Shown here one piece after another: positions 3,154 to 30,143 of a DNA stretch of 64,000 bases. The DNA lies in NCBI GenBank assembly GCA_951828585.1, contig OX639991.1, positions 1,334,576 to 1,398,575 on the forward strand. The letters are read 5' to 3'. The notes below the pieces were generated by a model. The model made no database searches. It was not told the DNA's origin and saw nothing but the letters and a program-made list of their open reading frames with translations. A program made the position numbers and the translations under genes. This stretch comes from Longimicrobiales bacterium. Lineage in GTDB: Bacteria > Gemmatimonadota > Gemmatimonadetes > Longimicrobiales > Gaopeijiaceae. The stretch's first letter is position 1. Every line of letters begins with the position of its first letter.

Positions 3154-3810
3154 ATGAATCGAATTCCAGGAAAGACAGGGATAACGCTGCTGGGTGTCGC
3201 GTCGGCGGCGCTGTTGTACCCGATCGAGGGGCATGCGCAGAGTGGGCTGGCAGATCAACGGCAGCTGCTTGAAGCGCTCGGCGCGGCGATCGCGGAGGTG
3301 AAGCGGAGTCCGTTTCACCGCGTTGGCCAGACCGGCCCCGGCGTCAACCCGCGGACGGTTGTGAGTGCAGCCTGGCCGCTTCAGGCGGATGGTACCGCGC
3401 TTGCGATCGAATCTGGAGCGTCTTCGCCCCAGGAGGCCGCGCACGCCGATTTGGACGACGGGCCCCGTTACGCGTTTTTTGCGGCGGTGCTTGGGGTCGC
3501 GGCGGGAGATCTTGCGAGCTTTGCTCTCGCGTCAGATTCCGATGGGTTGGGTTTGATCTCCTTTTTCACGCTTTCGCCATCCGTGACTGCACTGGCAACG
3601 ATCTTGGCCGGAGTGTCGCCCGGGGCGTCGTTCGCGTCGTCATTCCTTGGAACCGGGCTGGGGATCGGAACGGGTGTGCTCACGTTGAAAGCGCTGGAAG
3701 AGCCTCTCTACCTGGCGGCGATCATTCCCGCGGCGATCGTCTACTATGGCGTGCGCCTCGGGGTCGGCCTGGCCACGATGAAGTATTTTGAGCGACAGGG
3801 CCGAGGATAG
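3154..3810 (+). CDS. Exported/membrane protein, KRSPFH paralogue 1 (intact)
   Basis: 218 residues, function unknown. A signal-like hydrophobic segment (about residues 9-29) ends at a GHAQ-type cleavage site. It is followed by the shared family motif AIAEVKRSPFH near residue 50, then a variable linker. Three or four hydrophobic segments from about residue 105 to 205 are rich in Gly and Ala. The start is supported by AGGAGG 5 bases upstream. Two further copies follow at 4734 and 5406, both damaged, so this is the only intact member here. The motif is the most conserved part across the three and could be a processing or interaction site. I do not recognise the family. Confidence 0.75.
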   Translation: MNRIPGKTGITLLGVASAALLYPIEGHAQSGLADQRQLLEALGAAIAEVKRSPFHRVGQTGPGVNPRTVVSAAWPLQADGTALAIESGASSPQEAAHADLDDGPRYAFFAAVLGVAAGDLASFALASDSDGLGLISFFTLSPSVTALATILAGVSPGASFASSFLGTGLGIGTGVLTLKALEEPLYLAAIIPAAIVYYGVRLGVGLATMKYFERQGRG

Positions 3811-3815
3811 CGGAC

Positions 3816-4634
3816 GTGGCGGCCCAGGGAACAAATGCCCCGGTATTCGGGCAACAAAGCGTCCGCAGTGGGCCGATGAGCGCCCGGCACTTTCCCATAA
3901 CACCCGTGCCGGAGTGGGAGACTCGCTTCCCGTGGCTGCGGGCGGGAACCACCCGGCCCGCGGATCCGCAGTCCGATGCGAACCCCCTCGGCTCCGAAAC
4001 AGGGCCCGCCACACCCGACTCCGTGGCAGACCCGGGCGTCCCGCCCCTTCAGGACATGCTTCCGCTCACTGCGGGACGGCCCTGGCGTTCGGTCGTCCGC
4101 AACCGGCAGGTGCACGGATCGCTCACGCTGGCGCATGTGGACGTTGCCGCGGGCGCGTGGGAGGTGGGGGAAGCGGACGGGCATGTGACCCGCCTGGCGG
4201 GGGTCCTCCTGACCGTGACGATCGCCGACTGCGTCCCCGTGTTCGTCGCGGACCCGGTGCGCCGGGCCGTCGGGCTGTTCCATGCGGGGTGGCGGGGGAC
4301 GGCGGCGGGAGTGGTCGAGTCGGGGATGGCCGCGCTGGGTGCAACCTTCGGAACCAGGCCGGGGGACCTGACCGTTCATCTCGGGCCAGCCATCTGCGGG
4401 GCATGCTACGAAGTGGGACCCGAGGTCTTCCGGGCAATCGGCGAGCCCACACCGGCGACACCGCGGCCCATCGATCTCCGGGGCGTGATCAAGCGACGGG
4501 CGACACGGTCGGGTGTCCGTCCCGAGCAGGTCTCAGTGAGCGGCGAATGCACCCTGTGTGGCGACGGAAGGTATTTCTCGCACCGGCGCGGTGACGCAGG
4601 TCGCCAGCGGAGCTTCATCGGAGTTGTCGCGTAG
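3816..4634 (+). CDS. pgeF: Multicopper/purine-nucleoside phosphorylase family (YfiH/PgeF-type laccase domain)
   Basis: 272 residues with the Cu-oxidase_4 family signatures: NRQVHG, TIADCVPVFV, HAGWRGTAAG and GPAICGACYEVG, supplying the conserved His and Cys metal ligands. Family members act as purine nucleoside phosphorylases/adenosine deaminases or editing hydrolases; the older polyphenol-oxidase name is less secure. The GTG start has AGGA 7 bases upstream overlapping the stop of the preceding gene, suggesting coupling. An in-frame ATG at 3876 lies nearer the conserved domain but has no ribosome-binding site. The N-terminal ~60 residues are poorly conserved. Confidence 0.88.
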   Translation: MAAQGTNAPVFGQQSVRSGPMSARHFPITPVPEWETRFPWLRAGTTRPADPQSDANPLGSETGPATPDSVADPGVPPLQDMLPLTAGRPWRSVVRNRQVHGSLTLAHVDVAAGAWEVGEADGHVTRLAGVLLTVTIADCVPVFVADPVRRAVGLFHAGWRGTAAGVVESGMAALGATFGTRPGDLTVHLGPAICGACYEVGPEVFRAIGEPTPATPRPIDLRGVIKRRATRSGVRPEQVSVSGECTLCGDGRYFSHRRGDAGRQRSFIGVVA

Positions 4635-4733
4635 CCGGCCTGAGTGGATCGTTTTCGGAACCGCGCGGCCACCAGTCGCGTAGGGCGGTCCAATGTCGGT
4701 TTGAAGGAAAACGGTTGAAGAGGATGGTGGACC

Positions 4734-5409
4734 ATGAATTGGCCTTCGTTGTTCCGAGTCGGTCTGCCCGCGTCCGGGCTTTCGGTTGCCTTGCTCGGGT
4801 CGCTGCCGGGCGGCAGTTGTGCCCAGCACCTGCCTGTCCGGGAGAGCCTGTCCTTGAGCGCGGCGATCGAGGAAGCGAAGCGGAGTCCGTTTCACGCAAC
4901 TTCGCGGTTGAGGGAATCGGCTCGCGCCAGGGTCGCGGGCGGCCACGAGTCCACAGGATCTGTGCCGTGGGGTTGGGCGAGACCATCCGCGGTGGAGCCA
5001 GGAGACATCGGGCGGGGGTCCTGCTCCAGGCCTGTCGGTGGCAAGTGTGTTCCTGACGACGTCGATTGCCGCCGCGGTGTTGGACGCTGCCGCCATCGCC
5101 CTGACATTTACAGCGGCCCATTCGTCGCGCGGTGGTGGAGGGGAATTCCTGGTCGTGAGTGGAGCCGGAGCCGCGGCGATGGTCATCGGTCCTGCATTCG
5201 GAGCGAAACTGGCGGGGGGCCGCTTCTTGCCCGGTGTACTCGGTTCGGTCGTCGGGGCTCTGGGTGGCATCGCCGTGGCAGCCATCGCATACGAACTCGG
5301 AGTCCACGGAGCCGTATCGTTCTCACTCCTTTCGCTGGTGCACGCGGGAACCACGACGTTGTTCGTGATGAAGGCCGAAAAGTACCCAGCCGATGGCCGC
5401 GACGGGTGA
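4734..5409 (+). pseudogene. KRSPFH paralogue 2, frameshifted
   Basis: The 5' part encodes a signal peptide ending GSCAQ and the family motif AIEEAKRSPFHA. After about 4950 the family similarity moves to another frame. That frame reads ...APGLSVASVFLTTSIAAAV and ends in hydrophobic segments and LVHAGTTTLFVMKAEKYP, stopping at 5409. The shift must lie between about 4910 and 4990. The original frame stays open but reads arginine-rich, non-family sequence. This is a real lesion or an assembly indel; the neighbouring paralogue is damaged independently, which favours decay. Confidence 0.7.
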
Positions 5410-6257
5410 GCGAACCCCCGGACAACGTCGGCCTCTGTGCCCGCTGCGTCCGGGCCCTTTTCCCCCGGATTGGCGTGGTCGCCTGCGTGCTTTCGGCCGC
5501 GTTCCTGTTGCCGGCGGAGCAGACATCCGCCCAGCGTGGGCCGCAACGGGAGGGCCAGTCGCTGAGCGCGGCCATCGCGGAAGCGAAACGGAGTCCGTTT
5601 CATGCTCGCGATGATGTGAGTGGCTCGGTCACGCCGGATACCGGGCCTGCGGGCCACTTCCGGAGCGGGGCCAACCTGCTGGTGGGCGGCCAGGAGACGG
5701 GCGATGCAATGCCCTCCGACGGTCCGTCCGCCAGGAGAGTCTTCCTGGCAACGGCGATCGCGGCCCCGGTCGCGAACGTTGTGGGTCTGGCCCTAATCTC
5801 GAGGGGTTTCTGGGCCGATGCCCACGGTGAGTCCGGGTGGGACGATATGGCGGCCTTGAGCGGTGTGGGTATCGCACTCCTCGGGCCTCCGATCGCCGCG
5901 CGGCTGGTCGGGGGAGGCTTTGGTCGCGCCGTGCTGGGGTCGGTGGTGGGGACGGGCCTGGGAATCGCGACCCTTAGGTAGCAGCCCGTGGACAAGACCC
6001 TCACGGCATTCGACCGGCGATGCATCCGGGCTGGGCCGCTTCGCTCTGCGTTGCTCCTCGGGCGAATAGCGATGCTATTCCCCTCTCGTCGCGCCTTGCC
6101 AGCCCGGCGCCTCACCGCTCTCGGTGCTCGCGCGGGTCTATCCACGGACTGCAAGGTGGGGGAAGACAGGAACGACACGACCTGGTTACTGTCCCTTTCC
6201 CTCTATTCCCTCATACACGCCGGCGCGACCACTTTCTTTGAGCAAATCGGACGGTAG
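5406..6257 (+). pseudogene. KRSPFH paralogue 3, interrupted by the dispersed element
   Basis: Starts at a GTG overlapping the TGA of paralogue 2 (GTGA). It reads a signal peptide (to about residue 35, ...EQTSAQ), the motif AIAEAKRSPFHA, and membrane segments up to GTGLGIATLR, then stops at 5979-5981. The family C-terminus reappears after the 172-bp element at 6153-6257 as WLLSLSLYSLIHAGATTFF, matching the end of paralogue 2. The gene was therefore intact before insertion. The truncated 191-residue product may still be made but lacks its last membrane segment. Confidence 0.75.
5981..6152. mobile_element. Full-length dispersed inverted-repeat element (MITE-like), 172 bp
   Basis: The left end GCAGCCCGTGGAC pairs with the right end GTCCACGGACTGC (written as TCCACGGACTGC at 6141-6152). 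Inside are GCGATGCATCCGGGCTGGG, CTCTCGTCGCGCC and CCGGCGCCTCACCGCTCTCGG, blocks that recur in other copies. It carries no gene. AGGT occurs at 5976-5979 and again at 6154-6157, a possible 4-bp target duplication. It splits paralogue 3, direct evidence that this family moves or moved. Confidence 0.75.
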
Positions 6258-6477
6258 GCAGGGGCAGGTGCACGAAAGTGCCGGCTGAGCCCGGCGGTTC
6301 CCCCACGCGAGTTGGCCTCTGCACCCGGTGCGTCCGGATGCGCCGAGTCACCTCCCGGCGAGGCTCGGTCTTCTACCTCTGTGGCCGTCACACCGAAGAC
6401 CCTACCTTCCCCAAGTACCCTCCGCTCCCGGTGCTCCGGTGTCGCGGGTTCGAGCCAACCCCTCCCGACCATCCCGA
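6258..6477. other. Intergenic region, nothing assigned
   Basis: 220 bp between the broken paralogue and the glycosyltransferase start. Open frames cross it but none has family-like content or a convincing start. No hairpin or repeat copy stands out. Confidence 0.4.
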
Positions 6478-8568
6478 ATGACCGACCTCCTCAGCGTCGT
6501 CGCGGTCTCCCTCTACGGCGGCGTCCTCGCCCTCCTCCTTCCCTTCGCGGCGCACCGGATAAGCCTGCTTCTCCTGTCACGACGGCCCGCGCCCGGCAGC
6601 CTGTCCCCCACCCCGCCCCCCCACCCCCGCGTCACCGTCCAGTTGCCCATCTACAACGAGCCGCACGTCGTCGAGCGCCTCATCGACGCCACCTGCCGCC
6701 TCTCCCACCCCCGCCACCTCCTCCAGATCCAGGTCCTCGACGACTCCACCGACGACACCGCCGCCCTCGCCCGCCAACGCGCCCACGAGTGGCGGCGGCG
6801 AGGCATCGACATCACCGTCCTCCACCGCACCAACCGGCACGGCTACAAGGCGGGCGCCCTCGCCGAGGGGCTCGACTCGGCCACCGGCGACTATATCCTG
6901 ATTCTCGACGCCGATTTCGTCCCCCAGCCCGGACTCCTCGAAGAGCTGCTGCCGTCCATGGTCGATCCCCGGGTCGGCATGGTGCAGGCTCGCTGGGAGC
7001 ACCTCAACGAAAACGAATCGTGGCTGACCCGCGCGCAGGCGCTCCTGCTGGACGGGCACTTCCTGGTGGAGCAGAGGGGCCGTTACCGCGGCGGCCGGTT
7101 CTTCAAGTTCAACGGGACGGCGGGGCTGTGGCGCCGAAAGGCGCTCGACGACGCGGGCGGATGGGATCACGACACGCTGACCGAGGACCTCGACATCAGC
7201 TACCGGTCGCAGATGGCGGGATGGCGCTTCGTGCTGCGCGACGAAGTGGGTGTCCCGGCCGAACTCCCGCGCACCTCCGCCGCGCTCCTGGTGCAGCAGA
7301 GGCGCTGGGCCCAGGGCGGTGTTCAAGCCGCGCGCAAGCTGCTTCCCCGCCTGCTCCGCAGCCGCCTTCGCCCCGTCGTCAAGTTCGAGGCCGTCGTGCA
7401 TCTGTGCGGCCAGTTCGCCTACCCCCTGACCTTCGCGCTCGCGCTCCTCATCGTCCCGGCCGCGTTCGCCAGGCGGCAACTGGACATGGACGCGCTCTGG
7501 TGGCTCGACCTGGCCCTCTTCGCCGGTGCGGCCGGCCCGTTCATCGTCTACTACCTCACAGCCGCGAGGCGACGGGGCCGCGCCTGGAACAGGACCCTTC
7601 GGCGAGCGGTGGACGCGCTGGTGCTGGGCGCGGGACTCTCGGCCCTGCTCAGCCGGGCGGTGTTCCGTGGATTTCGGGCCCTCCGGGATCCGTTCGAGCG
7701 GACTCCCAAGACGGGTGCCTCCGCCCGAACGCGAAGAGAATCACCGGGCGGGGCGTTCCCTGGACGCGCGGTGGCGATCGGTGCGGGTGCGTACATGGTG
7801 CTGGGCGGGATGCTCGCACTGTCGGCCGGGTATTGGGCTTCACTGCCCTTCGTGGCGCTCTTCGCGGTCGGGTTCCTCGCGCTCGGGACCGGGGGCCGGG
7901 GACCGCTTGCGACCCGCCGGTACGAGGCGCCAGAGGATAACCCCCCAAACCGGCAGCCACATGGCCGCGCGATTCCAGCCGGGCTGCGGCCAGACCCCGG
8001 TGGCCTCGAACGAGGCAAGTCCCCAGTACCCCAGGAACGCGAGGCCGCCCACCAGGAGGAAGGGGGCGTGGCCCCGCAGCGCGGCCATCGGGAGGACCCA
8101 GAGCACGTACCAGGGGTGAACCGCGGGCGACAACAGCAGCCCGATACCCATGATCCAGAGCAGCGCCCGCTCGACGGAGAAACGCCTCCACGCCGTGTAG
8201 CCGGCGATCGCCAGGACCATGAGGGCAACGGCCGCGCGGGCCAGCACGGGATCCCGCGCCAGATGGAGAACCAGGGAAAAAGCCCCTTCATTGGCCGACC
8301 AGTGCCGCGCATAGGTGCGCAAGCCTCCGGTCAGCGCGGAGACCCCGGCACCTGCGAACGGGAGGTAGAAAACCGCACACACCGCCGCGAAGGCGACCAC
8401 GGCACGCACACCGTAGCGCCGCGCCAGGGGCGGCACGACAGCGGCAGGCGCGAACTTGACCAGGCTGGCCAGGCCCAGAACGGAGCCGAGGATGGCGGGG
8501 TGCTTCCAGACTCGAAGGAAGCGTCCGGGGGAGAACCGGTCCGGGTCCGGAGGCAGTCCCGCGGGTGA
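6478..8568 (+). CDS. Family 2 glycosyltransferase, CESA-like, membrane-bound
   Basis: The product begins MTDLLSVVAVSLYGG with an N-terminal membrane helix, then a processive GT-A catalytic domain. Motifs in order are LPIYNE, LDDSTDDTAALA, LDADFVPQ, FNGTAGLWRRKAL, LTEDLDISYRS and QQRRWAQGG, the D,D,D,Q..RW set of cellulose-synthase-like enzymes. Three or four membrane helices follow, from about residue 305 to 475. It probably transfers a sugar from a nucleotide donor to a lipid or polymer at the inner membrane. From about 7920 to the stop at 8568 the frame reads low-complexity sequence antisense to the convergent glycosyltransferase. A TAA in another frame sits at 7938-7940, so an indel near 7870-7930 may have removed the true stop. 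Confidence 0.85.
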   Translation: MTDLLSVVAVSLYGGVLALLLPFAAHRISLLLLSRRPAPGSLSPTPPPHPRVTVQLPIYNEPHVVERLIDATCRLSHPRHLLQIQVLDDSTDDTAALARQRAHEWRRRGIDITVLHRTNRHGYKAGALAEGLDSATGDYILILDADFVPQPGLLEELLPSMVDPRVGMVQARWEHLNENESWLTRAQALLLDGHFLVEQRGRYRGGRFFKFNGTAGLWRRKALDDAGGWDHDTLTEDLDISYRSQMAGWRFVLRDEVGVPAELPRTSAALLVQQRRWAQGGVQAARKLLPRLLRSRLRPVVKFEAVVHLCGQFAYPLTFALALLIVPAAFARRQLDMDALWWLDLALFAGAAGPFIVYYLTAARRRGRAWNRTLRRAVDALVLGAGLSALLSRAVFRGFRALRDPFERTPKTGASARTRRESPGGAFPGRAVAIGAGAYMVLGGMLALSAGYWASLPFVALFAVGFLALGTGGRGPLATRRYEAPEDNPPNRQPHGRAIPAGLRPDPGGLERGKSPVPQEREAAHQEEGGVAPQRGHREDPEHVPGVNRGRQQQPDTHDPEQRPLDGETPPRRVAGDRQDHEGNGRAGQHGIPRQMENQGKSPFIGRPVPRIGAQASGQRGDPGTCEREVENRTHRREGDHGTHTVAPRQGRHDSGRRELDQAGQAQNGAEDGGVLPDSKEASGGEPVRVRRQSRG

Positions 8569-26247: not shown

Positions 26248-27282
26248 TCAATCCAGCGCGATCAGATACACCCGCCGCGGATCGTTCGGCCCGGTCCCCA
26301 CCTCGCGCACCAGCCCGCGCTTCACCAGGCGGGCCAGCCGAGTCCGGGTGGAACGCGTCGAAAGCCCGATGGCGCCGGCGATCTCGCGGGTGGCCCGCCC
26401 CTCGCCGCCCTCCAGCAGACCGAGAATCGTCCGGTCCTTCGGATCGATGCTCGGCGAACGGATTGCCTCGGTCCGCAGGGTGACCCGGACACGGAACCCG
26501 ATCTCCTCCCAAGCCGGTGCGGGCAATCCGTCTTCGCGGCAGGCGGCGATCATCCGCTGCACCCCGCTTCCCCACTGCTCCACCAGTCCCAGTTCCTGGA
26601 AGACCCGGCCGATCACCCGGTTCCGCACCTTGGAGACACCGAGCGGGAGGTCCTCCAGAGTCAGCCCGAAGGGGAGGAGGCCCAGGTTCTCGACCTCCAG
26701 CCGATCGTCTAAGATCGCGACCCGGATCGGCATGCCGCGCTGCGAATAGTCCGCGTGGACGACCGCGTTGATGATCGCCTCGCGCACCGCCTCCGGGGGC
26801 AGGCTCCAACGGTCCCGGCGCCGCACGCGACCGATCACGGCTCCGCGCATCGAGTGCTTTTCGACGAACGCCACCGCTTCGTCAATGGCCCGCACGGGGT
26901 GCATCTCAAGTCGCGTGTGGTCCAGGATCGTCTCCTTGTCCTTCCCGGCGAAGCGCCCCGCCTGGATCCAGGCGTCGGGGAAGCGGTCGAGCCGGTCGCG
27001 TCCGAAGAGGAGGATGCCGCCCACCGTCGGCACCAGCCGGCCCTGGTGGGGGGTCAGGAGACGGAGGGTCTCCAGGTCCCGGCGTCTCAGCTTCCGCACA
27101 GGTGCGAAGGACTCGGAAGCAAGTCGGAAGTCCAGCGCTTCCGAGTTCGCTTCAGGGATCGGCCCTTCGTCGAAGGACTCGCCGATGGAGAACCGCTGCA
27201 TCTCGGCGATGAGCTGCGCGTCGGCCTGGCGGTTGGTGGAACCGACCCGCACATAGGTGCCACTTCTGCGGCAAAACCCCAC
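26248..27282 (-). CDS. Truncated Schlafen/AlbA_2-type ATP-binding transcriptional regulator
   Basis: The frame has 344 residues. Its recognisable start is the end of an AlbA_2 domain (TYVRVGSTNRQADAQLI), so the N-terminal ~100-120 residues expected for the family are missing. The remainder is typical: the GHKL-like ATPase segment PPEAVREAIINAVVHADYSQRG, then VENLGLLPFGLT, and a C-terminal winged helix (ATREIAGAIGLSTRSTRTRL). Upstream the sequence turns into the 3' end of a TonB receptor near 27260, so the truncation and the receptor damage share a junction. No ribosome-binding site supports the annotated ATG. It may be expressed as a fragment or be a pseudogene. Confidence 0.65.
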   Translation of the reverse strand: MGFCRRSGTYVRVGSTNRQADAQLIAEMQRFSIGESFDEGPIPEANSEALDFRLASESFAPVRKLRRRDLETLRLLTPHQGRLVPTVGGILLFGRDRLDRFPDAWIQAGRFAGKDKETILDHTRLEMHPVRAIDEAVAFVEKHSMRGAVIGRVRRRDRWSLPPEAVREAIINAVVHADYSQRGMPIRVAILDDRLEVENLGLLPFGLTLEDLPLGVSKVRNRVIGRVFQELGLVEQWGSGVQRMIAACREDGLPAPAWEEIGFRVRVTLRTEAIRSPSIDPKDRTILGLLEGGEGRATREIAGAIGLSTRSTRTRLARLVKRGLVREVGTGPNDPRRVYLIALD

Positions 27283-28029
27283 ACTTCCTGGTACTCCGCA
27301 CCCAGCAGGTTTTCGCCCCGCACGGTCAGCGCGAATCCCGGCCTCCCCCCGCGTCCCCCCGCGATCCCGGCCTCGGCCGACAGATCCACCACGGTGTAGG
27401 CCGCCAACGTCACCGGAGTCGCCGGATACGTCGAAAAGTCCCGGTCCGAACGCTCACCGGTACGGCGCGCACTCAGCTGCAGCCCCACCGCCTCCGCCAC
27501 CCGCACGAACGCCGTCGCGCCTGCCGCATGCCGCGGACGCCGCAGCAACGGCTCGCCCTCCACGAAGGTCGCCCCGGCACCCTCGTCGAACCCGGCGTCC
27601 TCGACCTCGGTGTCCAGCCAGGCGTAGCTGGCCGTCAGTTGCACCGGCCCGCCCCCGGCCTCCACCTCCAGCCCCCTGCTCCGCGCCTTCGCCACGTTGA
27701 AATAGTTGGGATCCCCTTGGGCCAGCGGCGAAAACGTGTACTGGATCAGGTCGCGATAGTCCTGGCTGAACCCGGTCAGCGACAGCCGGGACCGTCGCAT
27801 GGGCGGCCACGGTCCAGGCGGGCTCGGCCCAGCGGTTCGCGGTGACCACGAGGCCCTCCAGCTCGATGGGGTCCTGGGCGGTGAGGGGTTGGGGTGTGGC
27901 GGTGGCCAGTGCCAGGGTGGCGAAGGTGGCCGCGAGCGCGAGGCTGGTGCGGCTGCTGCTGCGGGTTTGGCCGACCGAGCGGTGGTCAGCGAGGGCGGGG
28001 GCGGTGGCGCGGTTCACGGTGTGTGTCAT
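27260..28029 (-). pseudogene. btuB: BtuB-like TonB-dependent receptor with a large internal deletion
   Basis: The 5' part encodes a signal peptide and, just after ...PLTAQDP, the motif IELEGLVVTANRWAEP followed by TVAAH, the plug start of BtuB-type receptors. At about 27800 it changes frame straight into C-terminal barrel sequence: LSLTGFSQDYRDLIQYTF, then FNVAKARSRGLEVEAGG, and LTVRGENLLGAEYQEVWGF. Some 350-450 residues of plug and barrel are missing and the two parts are out of frame. The very end, normally an aromatic strand, is lost at the junction with the Schlafen-type gene. The cobalamin riboswitch upstream shows its former substrate. Confidence 0.8.
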
Positions 28030-28195
28030 TTAGGCTCTCCCTCCCCGCGCGGAAGATCGAGGGAGATGCCGGGGCATCCGGTGCAGCCGTCATGAGATCC
28101 CCACGTCGGGGGTCTTTGCCACGAGCTGCTTCACCCTCACCTCCCCGCGGAGGTTCTTGGCGGCGCGCGGATCTGGCCGCGCGGGGCGCGTGTGG

Positions 28196-28372
28196 GTGCC
28201 GGACAAGCACGTCTCCTGGCTCGAGGCCGCCTGACCCGCCTTCCCAGGATCGTAGTTGGTCCCAGTGGCGTGTCGGATCGGCGTTCCGGGGAATCCCGGA
28301 CCTCTCACAGTGGCGGGGCCGCGCCGGACTTGCACCGGCTTCCGTTGGCCCCTCCGGCCGATTCGTGTTGTG
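28196..28372 (-). promoter_or_regulatory. Cobalamin riboswitch
   Basis: Read on the minus strand, the segment contains the class signature: GCCGGTGCAAGTCCGGC, then GGCCCCGCCACTGTGA, and towards the 3' end the B12 box GAGCCAGGAGACGTGC. These are the conserved core elements of adenosylcobalamin aptamers. It lies about 165 bases upstream of the BtuB-like receptor start on the same strand and should repress it when cobalamin is abundant. The receptor is a deletion pseudogene, so the riboswitch now controls a broken message, or transcripts reading into the Schlafen-type fragment. Confidence 0.88.
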
Positions 28373-28529: not shown

Positions 28530-28880
28530 ATGCCAACATTTATCAAGGGCACGATCCCGCTCCCTGTCCTCCGTCTTCTCGGGAAACTCGGCAGCGACAT
28601 CAGGGATGCACGGCTTCGCCGGCGCATTCGCACGGTAACCCTGGCGGAGCGGGCACTGATCAGCCGAACCACGCTGCACAGGATCGAGCGGGGCGACCCG
28701 GGTGTCTCGATGGGCAACTACTCGACCGTCCTCTTCGTGCTCGGTCTGCACGACGGGATCTCGGAGCTGGCCGATCGCAGCCGCGATTCACTGGGTCTCG
28801 ACCTCCTGGAGGAACGGCTGCCGCAACGCGTCCGGTTGCCTCTCAGGAGCGGCGGACCCCGATCGCCCGCCGGGGAGTAG
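28530..28880 (+). CDS. hipB: HipB-like XRE-family antitoxin/repressor
   Basis: 116 residues. The helix-turn-helix lies around residues 22-75: LGSDIRDARLRRRI, TLAERALISRTTLHRIERG, then SMGNYSTVLFVLGL. It directly precedes a HipA-type kinase gene with a 12-base gap, the usual antitoxin-toxin order. It should repress the operon and neutralise the kinase. The last ~15 residues are Arg/Pro-rich and dispensable-looking. The chosen ATG is 11 bases past the -10 box, hence possibly leaderless. Confidence 0.82.
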   Translation: MPTFIKGTIPLPVLRLLGKLGSDIRDARLRRRIRTVTLAERALISRTTLHRIERGDPGVSMGNYSTVLFVLGLHDGISELADRSRDSLGLDLLEERLPQRVRLPLRSGGPRSPAGE

Positions 28881-28892
28881 GACGCTGTCGCC

Positions 28893-30143
28893 ATGGAGCG
28901 CGAGATTCTGGTCCACGCGGAGATGGAGGGCACTCCCGTCCTGGTGGGGCGGCTATGGGTCCGGGTGCGCCGGGGTCGCGAGAGTGCATCCTTCGAATAC
29001 GACCGCGCGTGGCTGAGGCGCCCCGACAGCTATTCCCTGGAGCCGGCGCTTTCGAGCGGGCCCGGTGCGTTTCACACCCGCAAGGCCCTCTTCGGCGCAA
29101 TCGGCGACTCGGCACCCGACCGGTGGGGACGCGTCCTGCTGCGCCGCGCCGAAGTCCGCCGCGCAAGGATGGAAGGGCGGGCGCCCCGGACACTCTTCGA
29201 GTCCGACTTTCTCCTCCTCGTGGACGACGAACTCCGCACGGGTGCCCTGCGGTTCCGGACCGACCCCGATGGACCGTTCCTGGAAGAGCCACGCCCCGGC
29301 CGGGTCCCCCCGCTCGTGGGACTCGGCCGGCTGCTGGACGCGTGCGACCGGGTAACCCGGCGGGATGAGTTGGACGAGGACCTGCGGCTTCTCATCGGCC
29401 CTGGATCGTCGCTCGGTGGCGCCCGCCCGAAGGCGGCCATCCGGGACCGGGACGGCGCGTTGGCGATCGCGAAGTTCCCCCATGCTGACGATGACCGGGA
29501 CATCGTGCTGTGGGAGGCCGTGGCGCTCGAGCTGGCCGACCGGGCCGGGATCGCGGTGCCCGACTGGCGCATCGAAAGGGTGGCCGGGCGGCGAGTCCTC
29601 GTCGTGCGGCGTTTCGACCGAAGGGGTGGGTCGCGAGTGCCCTTCCTGTCCGCGATGAGCATGCTGGGAGCCGCTGACAACGAGCGGCGCTCGTACCTGG
29701 AGATCGCCGACGCGGTCCGGTCGCACGGAGCTGCCCCGAGAAAGGATCTCCAGGAGCTGTGGAAGCGGGTGGTCTTCAGCGTTCTTGTCTCGAACACCGA
29801 CGACCATCTGCGGAATCATGGATTCCTGTACGAGCGCGACAAGGGCTGGCGCTTGTCTCCAGCCTTCGATCTGAACCCGACCCCCACGGACGAACGCGCG
29901 CGGGTACTCGCCACGAACATTGACGAGCACGATGGCACGGCTTCGCTGGATCTGGCGTTGGGGACCGCCACGTACTATGGCCTTGGTCCGGGTGATGCCG
30001 GGCGCATTGCGGGTGAAGTCGGTCGGGCGGTTGGGGGATGGAGGGAGGTGGCGGCGCAAATGGGTGCGACGCGACGGGAGACCGACCGGATGGAGTCGGC
30101 GTTCTCGCATGAGGATCTGGAGGGGGCGCAGGGATTGGGTTAG
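28893..30143 (+). CDS. hipA: HipA-family serine/threonine kinase toxin
   Basis: 416 residues. The N-terminal HipA subdomain has FEYDRAWLRRPDSYSLEPAL and FGAIGDSAPDRWGR. The nucleotide-binding region includes SSLGGARPKAAIRD and LAIAKFPHADDDRD. The catalytic loop is SNTDDHLRNHGFLY and the metal motif AFDLNPTPT, both typical of HipA kinases. E. coli HipA phosphorylates glutamyl-tRNA synthetase and induces growth arrest; the target of this homologue is unknown. Catalytic residues appear intact. It is co-transcribed with HipB from the promoter at 28513. Confidence 0.88.
   Translation: MEREILVHAEMEGTPVLVGRLWVRVRRGRESASFEYDRAWLRRPDSYSLEPALSSGPGAFHTRKALFGAIGDSAPDRWGRVLLRRAEVRRARMEGRAPRTLFESDFLLLVDDELRTGALRFRTDPDGPFLEEPRPGRVPPLVGLGRLLDACDRVTRRDELDEDLRLLIGPGSSLGGARPKAAIRDRDGALAIAKFPHADDDRDIVLWEAVALELADRAGIAVPDWRIERVAGRRVLVVRRFDRRGGSRVPFLSAMSMLGAADNERRSYLEIADAVRSHGAAPRKDLQELWKRVVFSVLVSNTDDHLRNHGFLYERDKGWRLSPAFDLNPTPTDERARVLATNIDEHDGTASLDLALGTATYYGLGPGDAGRIAGEVGRAVGGWREVAAQMGATRRETDRMESAFSHEDLEGAQGLG

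Follow-up and report, generated by a model that had tools for sequence, protein, structure and literature searches.

Cobalamin riboswitches of the RF00174 family upstream of btuB, the gene of the outer-membrane B12 receptor, are the closest described counterpart of the locus analysed here, which lies in a 64-kb stretch of a bacterial genome (G000; the whole stretch is referred to as the window). Like that system, the locus has the aptamer core and, before the BtuB start, a ribosome-binding site that is probably sequestered; it differs in that the controlled gene is broken. A comparable case comes from Cutibacterium acnes KPA171202, in which cobalamin riboswitches lie upstream of pseudogenes (PMC9600381). 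In both organisms the riboswitch remains above gene fragments; those of C. acnes are adhesin-like in the parts of that paper considered here, whereas in the window the fragments are those of the B12 receptor itself, and an intact form exists in relatives. No prior report of this locus was found in the literature searched. The change is ordinary gene decay of a known kind, riboswitches above pseudogenes being already in print for C. acnes. What is mildly surprising is that the receptor should be missing from an organism that likely depends on B12. We consider the locus very probably to be a recently decayed B12-import locus, with the riboswitch intact and both btuB and the following AlbA gene cut by two deletions.

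The near relatives used for comparison are Gemmatimonadota metagenome-assembled genomes, and those of the same genus carry the riboswitch, a full BtuB and then a Schlafen/AlbA_2-HATPase-HTH gene. In G021 (locus L086) a BtuB frame of 676 aa (3384-5414) precedes, in the same orientation, a gene of 451 aa (5562-6917) with SLFN_AlbA_2, HATPase_c_4 and HTH domains. The intact BtuB resembles the known receptor in that TIGR01779 is its best NCBIfam match, over the full length (E 4e-88), and E. coli BtuB (1nqe) its best PDB match; it differs in scoring 296.5 bits, under the curated cut-off of 599.7, and the window copy additionally lacks residues 75-482. In G020 two type A btuB genes, as we call this form of the receptor gene, stand in tandem (L090, 3082-7344) and share about 65% and 82% identity with the copy of G021. 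Directly beside the riboswitch of the window, in divergent orientation, lies a HipBA-like pair of HTH (28530-28880, plus strand) and HipA_C (28893-30143, plus strand) genes; the DNA near the riboswitch, this pair included, also has matches in several relatives. The ancestor of the window's locus would thus have had a cobalamin riboswitch, then btuB, then an AlbA_2/Schlafen-type regulator gene.

A search of the window against Rfam with cmscan found the RF00174 aptamer, intact, at 28345-28209 of the minus strand with 77.3 bits (E 2.6e-17; gathering threshold 31.5), in agreement with the initial annotation, which had recognised the aptamer signatures on that strand and proposed this covariance-model run. 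No other Rfam family reached its gathering threshold in the 64 kb. The riboswitch tops the score ranking of the 40 cobalamin riboswitch matches in 23 genomes of the genus, its own included, and its aptamer core is unchanged in an alignment with nine relatives. Between the aptamer and the btuB start, at 28033-28078 of the minus strand, the alignment points to a putative expression platform. An inverted repeat, GGC(A)TCTCCCT / AGGGAGAGCC, sits just 5' of the btuB start at 28029 and would cover the Shine-Dalgarno sequence as a sequestor; a GATGCC / GGCATC hairpin would compete with it as an anti-sequestor. The sequestor pairing occurs in all 10 sequences, a single G-U pair included, and the anti-sequestor is fully paired in 9 of 10 when G-U pairs are counted, the window among them, with a single mismatch in G021. 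With pairs this close to invariant, covariation speaks neither for nor against the pairing, and folding of 28000-28110 and of 28020-28082 in the window alone gave results no better than shuffled sequences (z -0.69 for the platform). Given invariant pairs and an unremarkable fold, it is the conservation of the platform that suggests control at translation. In form, the conserved platform resembles one that sequesters the ribosome-binding site and acts on the btuB start; when B12 was bound, the riboswitch most likely hid this site. Terminator-based control was set aside as a reading, the search having turned up no terminator-like site. Binding of cobalamin by the window's riboswitch and a resulting change of expression are predictions from the sequence.

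Below this riboswitch the receptor gene is reduced to two pieces. With the intact BtuB of G021 as query, tblastn recovers residues 1-74 in one frame and residues 483-659 (72% identity) in another, so that residues 75-482 are missing, the frame is broken and no continuous plug with a full barrel is left. The 5' remnant (27790-28029, minus strand) comprises what we take to be a signal peptide and a TonB box (the TonB-box-like stretch ELEGLVVTANR), followed by the plug start. The 3' remnant (27268-27790, minus strand) holds the last strands of the barrel but has lost the 17 C-terminal residues and the stop codon; it matches the TonB_dep_Rec_b-barrel family (PF00593) with an E value of 7.3e-18. 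The 5' frame slips out of register and stops at 27454 after 191 codons in total, about 80 of them native and about 110 shifted, and the riboswitch would be left controlling only this short dead-end frame, probably with no functional product.

Distances between flanking anchors locate both losses. Across the first junction (27783-27805, minus strand) the anchors are 23 nt apart in the window and exactly 1249 nt apart in eight of nine relatives, which means that 1226 bp were lost inside btuB and the frame was shifted; in the ninth, G020, the left anchor fell in the first of the tandem copies, and the second copy gives the same distance from BLAST positions. The second junction (27263-27283, minus strand) fuses the btuB 3' end to the AlbA gene through a deletion of about 508-563 bp that takes the stop codon of btuB along with AlbA codons 1-111. 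Its anchors are 21 nt apart in the window, compared with 529 nt in G013, 559 nt in G021 and about 584 nt in G020, the relatives that make up this comparison, each of which has an entire AlbA gene downstream. G018 and G017, whose own AlbA genes are truncated or mostly lost, were left out of this count, as were G003, G005, G011 and G001, in which the AlbA gene was not found directly downstream in the stretch covered (the G003 contig ends there). The sequence GCCGC at 27272-27268 matches both sides of the second deletion as a microhomology. The two deletions, 1226 bp inside btuB and about 0.5 kb over the btuB end and the AlbA start, would be separate events with little or no end homology. The initial annotation had described a BtuB gene cut to its start and C-terminal barrel strands, joined out of frame near 27800, and a B12 importer lost with its regulator kept, and these points are borne out; it missed the second deletion, with which the feature is closer to 26248-28345 than to the 27260-28372 first given.

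A pair of deletions lying within 550 bp of each other in a single genome, with relatives intact, could also be the trace of an assembly or consensus error, in which living cells carry the full locus and the deletions are a minority variant or a misassembly. This is very unlikely. The genome is one contig that closes on itself, which makes an assembly collapse less likely; its ends (L187, L188) are identical over 10,982 bases, as in an untrimmed circle with a true size of about 4,461,333. The two junctions are clean, and one shows the microhomology that often accompanies real deletions; the missing middle of BtuB has no near copy at the G000 loci examined. Moreover, G022, the other single-contig genome of the genus, also has a broken B12 receptor.

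The downstream fragment (26248-27267, minus strand) is the 3' part, codons 112-451, of the Schlafen AlbA_2-HATPase_c_4-HTH gene, as identified by tblastn, which picks the gene up only from residue 112 of 451, and by domain search. AlbA_2 (PF04326) spans residues 11-127 in the intact relative and has no match in the fragment, which by the loss of residues 1-111 is without almost all of this domain. The initial annotation had suggested that the fragment could now be under B12 control. The fragment lies on the same strand as the riboswitch with no terminator-like site between, and an open frame of 344 codons remains from a GTG at 27282 and shows a dN/dS like that of intact copies. The AlbA gene, however, already starts about 117-172 nt past the btuB stop on the same strand in G021, G013 and G020, so that the deletion did not first place it under the riboswitch. 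Furthermore, the target of the platform is the btuB start, the fragment's start lies about 170 nt past the stop of the btuB remnant, where no coupling is expected, and the AlbA_2 domain is gone. Full-length AlbA genes also occur in six genomes without a type A btuB match (G002, G004, G006, G008, G009 and G019), so the riboswitch is dispensable for this gene. We regard new B12 control of the fragment as very unlikely. Eleven further SLFN_AlbA_2 genes lie elsewhere in the window's genome. Behind btuB, G018 (L087) has a truncated AlbA_2 gene and G017 (L093) has lost most of it, which indicates that this gene decays independently.

Peptides that carry a TonB box are able to inhibit TonB, and trans action is possible for riboswitch RNAs. 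The retained part of btuB comprises the signal peptide and the TonB-box-like stretch, and conservation of the RNA is complete, as would be expected if the remnant were kept as a secreted, B12-controlled peptide with a TonB box that competes for TonB, or if the riboswitch served as a regulatory RNA in its own right. Out-of-frame sequence nevertheless makes up over half of the 191-codon product, and the same arrangement occurs in none of the relatives examined, which makes this reading extremely improbable.

Recent decay of the import locus, the preferred reading, agrees with the state of the fragments. The btuB and AlbA pieces have zero internal stops. The dN/dS of the barrel piece is 0.17-0.29 against eight relatives (G003, G010 and G014 being left out), slightly above the 0.14-0.26 of intact copies among themselves, and that of the AlbA piece is 0.13-0.18 against six chosen relatives, compared with 0.12-0.17 for intact copies. 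These near-intact values and the undamaged riboswitch indicate that the loss is probably recent; weak residual selection, or a fragment that is still doing something, would fit the same low dN/dS. Likewise, the perfect riboswitch could reflect retained function or merely too little time to decay.

A search of the window's genome for a second BtuB, as proposed in the initial annotation, recognised none: the other riboswitch of the genome lies upstream of btuC and btuD-like genes, and the TonB receptors examined are not near copies of the type A receptor or of a second receptor form, type B. PF00593 has 24 matches in the genome, two of which represent one place (overlapping contig ends) and one the window remnant, in a screen that is blind to receptors without a PF00593 match, such as type B itself. 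When the intact type A receptor was compared with the loci of all 24 matches, the best other place reached 36% over 188 aa, and a type B search of the genome found no type B gene. In an NCBIfam scan of five receptors of G000, a B12 receptor was the best family for none. One receptor locus (L005, at C1:194445) scores 101.7 bits against TIGR01779, compared with 91.8 for type B, and is a possible candidate for a substitute B12 receptor, as judged from this score.

Intact receptors were found in 19 of the 23 genomes of the genus, 11 with type A (G001, G003, G005, G010, G011, G013, G014, G017, G018, G020 and G021; the G003 gene ends within a few codons of the contig end) and 8 with type B (G002, G004, G006, G007, G009, G012, G016 and G019). 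None has both, and four have neither, namely the closed G000 together with G008, G015 and G022; G008 and G015 are drafts from which the gene may simply be missing. The type B receptor, of about 800 aa, adjoins btuCD, and each gene set has its own riboswitch; its sequence is that of a distant BtuB relative, and its riboswitch and place suggest that it imports B12. A type A relic stands beside the intact type B gene in G012, and the single contig of G022 holds a type B relic, so that B12 receptor decay is independent in these two genomes. A tree of BtuC, an ABC protein and a RidA-like protein, built for 19 genomes out of the 23, places G000 close to type A genomes at low support values (0.57-0.69). 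The receptor types are intermixed in this tree, and several losses or exchanges are therefore likely.

CbiC, a single and thin marker of B12 synthesis, and MetE were each found in none of the 23 genomes (controls matched in 7 and 10 of 14, respectively). A B12 pathway was likewise not found for the order Palauibacterales, for which btuB and btuF are reported, in the parts of PMC10469786 considered here. The window's genome encodes a full-length MetH as well as another B12-binding protein, and keeps BtuCD. Its btuCD riboswitch operon (L104, 4170-7566) contains no Peripla_BP_2 (btuF-like) gene; such a gene lies directly behind the btuCD riboswitch in 12 of the 23 genomes, and both Peripla_BP_2 genes of G000 lie elsewhere. 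The cell appears to be unable to make B12, and the genome probably needs external B12 and has no recognised BtuB. Its B12 may enter through a TonB receptor annotated as something else, for which L005 is a candidate, or by another route. More tentatively, and with considerable doubt, the genus as a whole, with no B12 synthesis and a B12-requiring methionine synthase, may have repeatedly lost or exchanged its riboswitch-linked receptor, some members, G000 included, using an unrecognised outer-membrane route. The bacterium is presumably sponge-associated and a Palauibacter, judging from the isolate names of near relatives and the parts of the paper on that group considered here (PMC10469786).

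For annotation, it follows that the presence of an intact riboswitch must not by itself be taken for that of an intact B12 importer. The window captures a B12-import locus early in its decay, with a perfect regulator, in a lineage whose members probably must import B12, and raises the question of how B12 passes through the outer membrane of this bacterium.
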